Below are positions 45,967-49,061 of a DNA stretch of 64,000 bases, piece by piece. The DNA is from Fervidibacillus halotolerans (GTDB lineage Bacteria > Bacillota > Bacilli > Bacillales > Caldibacillaceae). Made by a program: the position numbers and the translations under genes. The notes below the pieces were generated by a model. It was not told where the DNA came from, ran no database searches, and saw only the letters and a program-made list of their open reading frames with translations. Numbering within the stretch: position 1 is the stretch's first letter; every line of letters starts with the position of its first letter. Where the stretch lies: NCBI RefSeq assembly GCF_026547205.1, contig NZ_CP106877.1:1266771-1330770 (forward strand), in the 5' to 3' direction.

Positions 45967-46941
45967 TTAGATCCACACCTCGATATATATTCCTAAAATG
46001 GCAAATAACAATCCGACCATCCAAAAGGTCACCACAACTCTCCATTCAGACCAACCCTTCAATTCATAATGGTGGTGTAAAGGACTCATTCGAAAAATCC
46101 GCTTTCCAGTTAATTTAAAGGATATGACTTGAAGGATTACAGATAACGTTTCAATGACAAATACACCGCCGATAATCAGTAATAATAATTCCAATCCAGT
46201 CATCATAGATATGGCAGCAATAGCACCGCCTAAAGCTAAAGATCCGGTATCGCCCATAAACACCTTTGCCGGATGAGCATTAAAAACGAGGAAACCTAAC
46301 ACTGCACCGACTGTCGCAGATGAGAATAAAGCGATGTCGTATTGCCCTTGATTCCAGCTAAGGATCGCATAAGCTCCGAAGGCGATGGCTGCTGTTCCCG
46401 ATAACAATCCGTCCAACCCATCGGTTAAATTTACAGCATTTGAAAAGCCGACCAACCAAAATATAGCAAACAACATATAAACCCATCCTACCGATAAAGA
46501 ATAATCCGTCATCGGTATTTGAATTTCCGTAAGAAAGCCGTATTGCCGATAGATCCAATAAAAAATAAGGGCGATGACCACTTGACCGAAAAGCTTTTGT
46601 TTCGATGTCAATCCGAGATTCCGTTTCAAAACGACCTTTATGAAATCATCAAGAAACCCTAAAAGACCATAACCGAGAGTTACAAATAATAAAAGATAAA
46701 TTTCCGCCGTCAATTCGTACATACTCTTAACGACAATCAAAGAGGTAATGACGATCGACAAAATAACCATTATACCGCCCATTGTCGGTGTTCCTTGCTT
46801 TTTTTGATGGGATTTTGGCCCTTCTTCCCGTATACTTTGCCCAAATTTCAATCTTCTCAGAAATGGGATGAAGACGGGTGAAAAAAGGACGGTGATGAAA
46901 AAAGCGATGACAATTGAAATCATAATGGACTGACTAGCCAT
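45967..46941 (-). CDS. mraY: Phospho-MurNAc-pentapeptide transferase MraY
   Basis: Transfers phospho-MurNAc-pentapeptide to undecaprenyl phosphate, making lipid I. It has 324 residues and ten membrane helices with the conserved [20 protein letters not shown] (catalytic Asp pair), [24 protein letters not shown] and the HHHYELKGW motif near the C terminus. ATG follows GGGGAGGG inside the end of the preceding gene. Confidence 0.98.
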
Positions 46942-46942
46942 C

Positions 46943-47365
46943 TTACACCCTCCCCTTCCACTCGTCTAAAAGCATAATAAAATGTTTTTGGCTAATCGCT
47001 GACGGAGTAAGGATTTTTTCACCCGTTTTTTGACGATTCATCAAAATAATTTTCGTATGATGGTTTAGATGATTTACACCGAATTCTTCCACGATTCGAA
47101 TCGCAGCTTCAAGTACATCGTAAACATAGAAAACAGCGAATTCGTTCGGAATCGTTAAAGGAAGCGGTTCATTTTCGTTCCACAGGGTTGCGATTGCACC
47201 GTTATTATAAGCCTCTTCGATATCCTTCTGAAAAAGGGGAACAAATAGACCGTTTGGTTGTTTCGCTTTTGTGGAAAAAGAAATGGTTTCAAAACGTAAT
47301 AGCTGATCGTTCATTCCCTTTATATCAGGAAATAAACGAGAAATATGATTGTGTGTAATATACAT
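46943..47365 (-). CDS. Stand-alone Mur-ligase N-terminal-domain-like protein (unnamed)
   Basis: I do not know a name for this 140-residue protein. Its pattern follows the UDP-binding N-terminal domain of MurF or MurE: an early ISRLFPDI helix, then [17 protein letters not shown] (the slot of the usual dSRxxxpGxLFval), [16 protein letters not shown] and [17 protein letters not shown]. The GKT ATP loop and the central and C-terminal domains are missing; instead 45 residues with two likely strands or helices end the protein. It starts at ATG with AAAGGAG, lies 33 bases after murE and 1 base before mraY, so it is translated as part of the dcw operon. It is not in this place in B. subtilis. It could be a MurF fragment kept as a regulator or scaffold. 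Coding status is secure; function is unknown. Confidence 0.8.
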
Positions 47366-47398: not shown

Positions 47399-48862
47399 TT
47401 ATTTATTTCGAATCGCTTCCCTTGCGACTAATCGATCATCAAAATCGATTTTTTGATCCCCAATGATTTGATAAGTTTCGTGGCCTTTTCCCGCAATCAG
47501 CACGATATCATCCTTTGAAGCTGAACGAATGGCCCATTGGATCGCCTCTTTTCGATCCGGAATTACTTTATAATATAAACCTTTGACCCCTTCTTCCATT
47601 TCTTTTAATATAGCCATCGGATCTTCGCTGCGGGGATTATCGGACGTAAAAATCGGGTCTGTCGCATATTTGCATGCGATTTTTGCCATGATTGGACGTT
47701 TTAGTCGATCCCGGTCGCCACCACAACCAACGACGACAAATAACCTTCCTTTTCCAATTGAACGGACCGTTTTCAATACATTTTCTAAACTGTCCGGAGT
47801 ATGGGCATAATCGACGATGACGCCAAATGATTGGCCCCCATCGACTAATTCAAGTCGACCGGGTACACCCGGAAATTTGGTAAAGGATTGAATGATTCTA
47901 TCCATTGGAATATCGTAAACAAAGCCAACACTTATGGCAGCGAGGCTATTATACACATTGAATTTTCCAATTAACGGAATCGTTACTTGCCACTTGCCTT
48001 CTGGTGTTTGTAATGTGAAGGATGTACCTTTATTAAAAAAACGGATATTTGTCGCTCGAATATTTGCTTGCCGTTCAATTCCATAAGTTAAAATATGTAC
48101 ACCTGTAACTGTTTCAAAATAGCGGGATGCCTCATCGTCTGCATTCAATATGGCAAATTTTTTCCTTTCAGGTGAATACGTGTTACCTAATTGGGAAAAC
48201 AGTAACCCTTTTGCAAAACGATATTCATCCATTGTTTTATGATAATCGAGATGATCTTGAGTCAAATTCGTAAAAACCGCAACGTCAAAATCGGTTCCCC
48301 AGACCCTCCCTTGAACAAGGGCGTGGGATGAAACTTCCATACTAACAAACTCCACATTTTTTGCAATCATGTTAGAAAATAATTTTTGTAAAGTAATGCT
48401 GTCAGGTGTTGTATTTTTCGTATCGAATGTTTCGTTATTGTATTTCGTATACAATGTTCCAATTAAACCGGTCGACTTTCCGTTTGTTTGAAAAATATGT
48501 TCAATCATATGACTGACAGATGTTTTTCCATTCGTACCGGTGACACCAATAATATTAAGTTTTTCAGACGGATACTGATAAAAGGCAGAAGCTAATATCG
48601 CCATCGCTCGTTTCGTATCTTGAACATAAACGACGGGAACATTCACATCGACAGGTTTCTTAGCAACAATAGCTACAGCCCCTCTTTTTTCTGCCTCTCT
48701 CGCAAATTGATGGCCGTCATAAACCGTTCCTTCGATGCATATGAACAAAGTTCCTTCCGCTACTTTTCGAGTATCCTGTTCAATACGTTTAATTTCAGGA
48801 TTTATAGATTGATCGGTCACTTGTGTAAATGATAAAGCATTCAATAACGTTTGGAGTTTCAA
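47399..48862 (-). CDS. murE: UDP-MurNAc-tripeptide synthetase MurE (meso-DAP adding)
   Basis: Adds meso-diaminopimelate to UDP-MurNAc-dipeptide. It has the N-terminal domain (DTRKVAEGTLFICIEG), the P-loop GVTGTNGKTSVSH, the carbamylated-lysine region (YRFAKGLLFSQLG) and the DNPRSEDP signature that selects meso-DAP instead of lysine, then GKGHETYQ. TTG at 48862 is the likely start, 9 bases after AAGGAG (487 residues); the ATG at 48871 touches the ribosome site. It heads the murE-to-spoVE stretch after a 236-base gap. Confidence 0.96.
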   Translation of the reverse strand: MKLQTLLNALSFTQVTDQSINPEIKRIEQDTRKVAEGTLFICIEGTVYDGHQFAREAEKRGAVAIVAKKPVDVNVPVVYVQDTKRAMAILASAFYQYPSEKLNIIGVTGTNGKTSVSHMIEHIFQTNGKSTGLIGTLYTKYNNETFDTKNTTPDSITLQKLFSNMIAKNVEFVSMEVSSHALVQGRVWGTDFDVAVFTNLTQDHLDYHKTMDEYRFAKGLLFSQLGNTYSPERKKFAILNADDEASRYFETVTGVHILTYGIERQANIRATNIRFFNKGTSFTLQTPEGKWQVTIPLIGKFNVYNSLAAISVGFVYDIPMDRIIQSFTKFPGVPGRLELVDGGQSFGVIVDYAHTPDSLENVLKTVRSIGKGRLFVVVGCGGDRDRLKRPIMAKIACKYATDPIFTSDNPRSEDPMAILKEMEEGVKGLYYKVIPDRKEAIQWAIRSASKDDIVLIAGKGHETYQIIGDQKIDFDDRLVAREAIRNK

Positions 48863-49061
48863 TTTAAACATCTCCTTCTTGTGAAAAGGCAGGAAAATTT
48901 ACCAACATCCATTTTACATGAAACATTCCTTTTTGGCTATAATCCATTTTCATAAATTCCCTTTCCACCCGTCTATTAAAAATCATAATCATCTCTTTTT
49001 CCCATATTCATATGGATGAAAAGAAATTACGTCGATCTAACCTATCGGTGCACACTGAATC

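Follow-up and report, generated by a model that had tools for sequence, protein, structure and literature searches.

A stand-alone MurF N-terminal domain encoded between murE and mraY in Fervidibacillus halotolerans and its relatives

The dcw cluster of Fervidibacillus halotolerans contains a gene for a protein of 140 amino acids between murE and mraY, a position that is occupied by a full murF gene in other genomes of the same order. This raises the question of what the short protein is, where it came from and why its gene has been retained. The features at this locus are listed below by their positions in the window, by which we mean the whole stretch of 64,000 nucleotides that was analysed.

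47399..48871, minus strand: murE, the upstream neighbour, 490 amino acids
47374..47380, minus strand: ribosome-binding site AAAGGAG
46943..47365, minus strand: stand-alone MurF N-domain-like gene (P0001), 140 amino acids, open reading frame from the ATG at 47365
47075..47365, minus strand: N-domain part of this gene, residues ~1-97, kept as protein, DGH loop deleted
46946..47074, minus strand: tail of this gene, residues ~98-140, weakly conserved as protein
45967..46941, minus strand: mraY, the downstream neighbour, 324 amino acids
44611..45966, minus strand: murD, next downstream, named from sequence, with a weak TIGR01143 match

The first-pass annotation had described a frame of 140 codons with a good ribosome-binding site and tight spacing to its neighbours. 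All of these particulars were recovered: the AAAGGAG sequence lies eight bases 5' of the ATG, 33 bases separate the frame from the end of murE at 47399, and a single base separates it from the start of mraY at 46941. The strand, which had not been given, is the minus strand.

Identity of the domain and loss of the catalytic motifs

The window protein had no match in single-sequence searches of Pfam, NCBIfam and the PDB (Pfam and NCBIfam at an E-value of 10), and no Mur-type Pfam family was identified among the 18 family members searched, so that the proposed check with the PF01225 model gave no support. For TIGR01143 (MurF), the window protein had no match at E ≤ 10, below the curated cut-off, and weak sub-threshold matches were obtained for 5 of 18 relatives, the best with an E-value of 0.007. 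A profile built solely from the stand-alone proteins matched the N-domain of full MurFs with E-values down to 1e-21, and of about 1e-29 in a second run, and did so in most of the approximately 250 genomes matched in a search at the class level. When compared to the PDB, the only match of this profile was to MurF, with a weak E-value of 0.5.

An AF2 model, for which 42 family members served as input, had a pLDDT of 83.6, with values of 92 to 96 over the first 90 residues, which contain the N-domain blocks. The top match to the predicted structure in VIA-align was the MurF protein of P. aeruginosa (4cvk; Z 10.1, rmsd 2.1 over 93 residues), and MurF and MurE entries filled the top 12 rows, MurF first and then MurE. 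Matches with lower Z scores included LpxD and a DRTGG domain, which reflect a common arrangement. The first ~95 residues of the window protein thus have the Mur-ligase N-terminal fold of domain 1 in MurF and MurE, as the first-pass annotation had proposed, and the suggested comparison of structures yielded a clear match. Because the profile of the stand-alone proteins finds MurF N-domains and the structural comparison ranks MurF and MurE first, the assignment to the MurF N-domain is firm.

Two of the structures, 8r6s and 8xzv, represent what we take to be PAP11, the MurE-like protein of the plastid RNA polymerase. This protein, which was among the structural matches of the window protein, is likewise a Mur-ligase homolog, in this case one that belongs to an unrelated machine as one of its subunits, but it is nearly full-length, MurE-like and found in another context.

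The first-pass annotation was also correct in that the GKT ATP loop and the other two domains are missing from the window protein. Across the family, the P-loop TG[ST]xGKT was present in none of 91 stand-alone proteins, versus all 53 slot MurFs and all 32 MurFs encoded next to ddl, and the central and C-terminal MurF domains are absent. Judged from these sequences, catalysis by the stand-alone protein is excluded. The GA....W and PxxFP residues were kept in 85 and 89 of the 91 proteins, respectively.

The D[ST]R and DGH motifs contact UDP, as is known for MurE. The former was identified in only 2 of the 91 stand-alone proteins versus 53 of 53 slot MurFs, and the DGH-type loop in none of them versus all 53 slot MurFs and all 32 ddl MurFs. 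In the window protein, the DGH loop is deleted relative to the segment LFVP-IVGDKFDGHNFL-KEAINNGA in the slot MurF L022. Since both motifs are gone, binding of UDP-MurNAc in the usual mode seems unlikely, and the earlier suggestion that the protein binds UDP-MurNAc-peptides is not supported, with D[ST]R lost in 89 and the DGH-type loop in all 91 proteins. A role as a sensor or buffer for UDP-MurNAc-peptides, which had been proposed on the same lines, could draw on the fold itself, as the N-terminal domain of MurE holds the uridine site (PMC3829189), but we consider it very unlikely given the depletion of the two motifs relative to the slot and ddl MurFs.

Origin from the murF gene of the slot

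The genome of F. halotolerans consists of 2.94 Mb in one contig and contains exactly one full MurF gene above the NCBIfam cut-off, located directly behind ddl (G000:C1:2908933-2910210). The slot gene is therefore not the MurF of this cell, and the search for a full murF elsewhere in the genome, as recommended in the first-pass annotation, had a positive outcome. A single full MurF outside the slot was likewise identified in all 28 genomes with the stand-alone gene that were checked, with ddl at each of the 28 MurF loci, and none of the 13 tested genomes with a full slot MurF encoded a second full MurF.

A phylogeny inferred from the N-domains placed 29 of 30 stand-alone rows in one clade with an SH-aLRT value of 99, nested among the slot MurFs; this tree is based on few columns, and the thirtieth row, L138, was badly trimmed and had a long branch. 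The ddl-linked MurFs formed a separate clade with an SH-aLRT value of 100. The stand-alone proteins resemble MurF (TIGR01143) in the fold, in the order of the elements and in the placement in the dcw cluster between murE and mraY, and they have the NGA..A.W and P..PNxFP residues in common with the slot MurFs of the same order, including the PxxFP core. What sets them apart from MurF is that they lack the P-loop, both of the domains that follow the N-domain, and the two substrate motifs, D[ST]R and DGH. We are highly confident that the stand-alone protein is, by identity and origin, the N-domain of a slot MurF.

The hypothesis that murF moved from the slot to ddl was rejected, as the ddl MurFs form a separate clade whereas the stand-alone proteins nest with the slot MurFs. 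The first-pass annotation had offered a choice between the decayed remainder of a murF that had moved elsewhere and a kept protein; both are partly true, except that the tree speaks against a move. In the proposed scenario, a murF gene would have been located between murE and mraY in the ancestor of a large part of the order, catalysis would have been taken over by a second, ddl-linked MurF lineage, and the slot gene would have lost the ATP loop, the central and C-terminal domains, and the motifs for the UDP substrate, with the N-domain kept as a separate protein. Because of the tree placement and the mutual exclusion of full MurFs, the comparison indicates that the ddl-type MurF took over catalysis and that the slot gene became shorter, and we infer the order of the loss and the takeover.

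Degenerate slot MurFs were also noted in two groups other than those with the stand-alone gene. Two species (G213 and G257) contained an intact gene for a slot MurF of 313 amino acids that lacks the C-terminal domain and in which the P-loop, TGDEGVD, is dead (L182:2068-3009 and L183:2125-3066), and a third degenerate slot MurF, with the P-loop TGTDCPTE, was identified in G031 (L304), although the slot of G183, from the same genus, contains a full MurF. These proteins of ~310 amino acids are similar to the stand-alone proteins in their slot, the dead P-loop, the retained N-domain and the lack of a C-terminal domain, but they retain a decayed central domain and have a separate origin from the stand-alone clade. 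A MurF-like catalytic protein of ~530 amino acids, in which a transmembrane-like N-terminus replaces the N-domain, is encoded next to a ddl-like gene in G257 and G213 (L229 and L230). Finally, extra sub-threshold MurF-like ligases of 460 to 750 amino acids were present besides the ddl-type MurF in G342, G010 and G032.

Distribution and selection

Scans of genome_contigs and viral_contigs with the single protein found no relatives. A survey of the order identified relatives of 145 to 178 amino acids in many genomes, and each stand-alone relative inspected was flanked by murE on one side and mraY on the other, all in the same orientation. A scan of genome_contigs recovered the stand-alone form in 80 named loci, including some from Cytobacillus, Mesobacillus, Neobacillus, Robertmurraya, Niallia, Heyndrickxia, Siminovitchia and Anoxybacillus, as well as from Bacillus methanolicus. 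The frame was intact in all 80 loci, with lengths of 139 to 154 amino acids, and murE was located directly 5' and mraY directly 3' in every locus with a recognisable neighbour. In a survey of 397 genomes of the order, the stand-alone form was present in about 80 genomes from 13 family-level groups; in one of these genomes (G228), the gene had internal stops, located in the tail. The state of the slot followed the family groups, with the stand-alone form in 13, a full MurF in about 20 and an empty slot in about 15, with some overlap. An alignment across all families was too diverse for a pattern search, which succeeded with a closer subset.

The stand-alone gene is thus not an oddity of one genome, and the frame in the window is real, far beyond chance, as shown by relatives of matching length that occupy this slot in all 80 named loci. 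Searches of open-access papers yielded no account of it. A few records titled Chryseobacterium, Pseudomonas, Sporosarcina and Paenibacillus (L066, L077, L081 and L084) contained a locus of the Bacillaceae type and are probably mislabelled or misassigned.

The window protein is among the most divergent copies, with 23% to 37% identity to the others, the highest value of 37% being to a relative in the same murE-mraY slot in G007. All of the residues that are invariant in the family (G17, G39, G56, A57, W62, P69, P73, N74 and F76) are present. This copy itself is supported by its uninterrupted frame, by the presence of the invariant positions and by the G007 relative, while the dN/dS values of the family are derived from pairs of its relatives.

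The median dN/dS values, estimated from 129 close pairs of relatives that are not mutually independent, were 0.18 for the N-domain, 0.24 for the whole gene and 0.48 for the tail, compared to 0.06 for murE and 0.02 for mraY. Synonymous sites in codons 11 to 80 varied freely, and the N-domain is therefore conserved as a protein. Purifying selection on the gene is real but modest, and both neighbours are constrained several-fold more strongly. The survey of the murE-mraY gap with dN/dS analysis, as suggested in the first-pass annotation, thus revealed intact and kept frames and neither random frameshifts nor a dN/dS near 1, and the argument that an intact frame favours a kept function stood.

The gene was absent in 5 of the 7 tree members of the family group to which the window belongs. 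The slot was empty, with murE abutting mraY, in L153, L154, L155, L157 and L158 of this group. The stand-alone gene is dispensable in these relatives, and parsimony on the mraY tree suggested about 10 changes between the stand-alone and the empty state; the gene has been lost several times. Decayed copies were identified in L184 and in L239 (G053), the latter reduced to the tail of the gene, with its promoter-like element, in the space between murE and mraY.

It might accordingly be argued that the gene is a relic in slow decay that does little or nothing, its frame having not yet been broken everywhere. The relaxed constraint relative to murE and mraY, the losses and empty slots, the broken or partial copies in G228 and G053, and the forms of 108 amino acids in G358 and G184 would agree with such a relic. 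We nevertheless find this unlikely, since the proteins form a single clade across 13 family groups and retain the invariant residues at ~30% identity, a frame free of selection would have been interrupted over so long a time, yet 80 of 80 loci are intact, and the N-domain has a dN/dS of 0.18 with free synonymous sites.

Proposed role at the MurE-MraY step and the promoter-like tail

We suggest, with slightly less than even confidence, that this retained non-catalytic MurF N-domain works as a small partner of other proteins at the MurE-MraY junction. If the protein is made and works by protein contacts, the first candidates would be MurE, MraY and MurF: by docking on MurE, on MraY or on the MurF of the ddl type, it would help to keep the enzymes of precursor synthesis in contact or adjust their activity, a part that the slot MurF may have played earlier. 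A two-hybrid contact between MurF and MraY in C. crescentus is cited in PMC6420597, which argues for Mur complexes. The MurE-MurF fusion and the MurG-scaffolded Mur complexes described there similarly couple the same steps of the pathway physically, but these are built of active enzymes. Since the full slot MurFs share the W and PxxFP residues, which counts against a docking face, these may be structural. The several-fold weaker constraint compared to the two neighbouring genes, the gene losses, the two decayed copies and the strong divergence of the window's own copy also weigh against a partner role.

The lower synonymous divergence had raised the possibility of an RNA element extending over the full gene; this was narrowed down, as the low divergence was found mainly in the 3' third. 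In most relatives, the DNA of the tail is nearly invariant around ACATATGATAT, beyond what the amino acids need: Thr/Ser-Tyr-Asp is nearly always encoded by ACA/TCA-TAT-GAT, and CATANNNTA is retained where His or Ala replaces Asp. The sigma-E consensus is kmATATT for the -35 and CATACAnT for the -10 element. The sequence CATANNNT occurred 40 to 110 nt before mraY in 97 of 125 distinct stand-alone slots, but in only 2 of 57 murF slots, 1 of 29 empty slots and 71 of 774 control windows; these figures are counts rather than probabilities, as related sequences are not independent. A -35-like heptamer, which reads TCATATT in L016, L042 and L139, is located 13 nt upstream of the -10-like site, and the tails of most relatives contain a kmATATT-like -35 element, a spacer of 13 to 14 nt and the -10 element CATANNNT near mraY, as expected for the sigma-E type. 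No such element was recognisable in the gene of the window, where the best site was weak (CATACGAA), and it was missing from about a quarter of the relatives. A generic, untrained sigma-E score separated the slots only modestly (a median of 13.0 in stand-alone slots versus 11 to 12), and the promoter claim therefore rests on the -10 counts and the synonymous invariance. The element in most relatives fits a mother-cell sigma-E promoter, the activity of which is a prediction; in these, although not visibly here, the 3' end of the gene would also serve as a promoter from which mraY and the genes downstream are transcribed. The spoVE gene of B. subtilis, further down in the same cluster, has sigma-E promoters (PMC517825).

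It could then be argued that selection retains this stretch chiefly at the level of DNA or translation, through an mraY promoter in the 3' end or ribosome coupling into mraY, with the protein of minor importance. Such an explanation would account for the enrichment of CATANNNT, the fixed codons with CATANNNTA retained despite the Asp changes, the heptamer 13 nt upstream and the remnant in L239, which retains just this part of the tail. It explains the tail alone, however, while the N-domain is kept as a protein with free synonymous sites, the element is absent from the window gene and about a quarter of the relatives, and many genomes have no gene in the slot; we judge it improbable.

Returning to the protein partner, a broader proposal is that dead MurF N-domains form an undescribed family with a dedicated adaptor or regulatory function at the MurE-MraY step of many Bacillaceae, and that the tail in most of them is also a mother-cell promoter driving mraY and the following genes for the spore cortex, which we put forward tentatively, as a possibility that is more doubtful than the partner role by itself. 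Mur ligases are drug targets and the dcw cluster is among the best-studied bacterial gene groups; a conserved dead MurF domain in many genera would show a role of the N-domain apart from catalysis, and one small gene offers a way to test the long-standing notion that Mur proteins and MraY form a physical complex. The sigma-E-type element, if true, would give a direct prediction of how the mother cell raises precursor synthesis. In the tails of L065, L016, L128 and L139, a TCATATT-like -35 element is followed after 13 nt by CATATGAT, ~57 to 100 nt before mraY.
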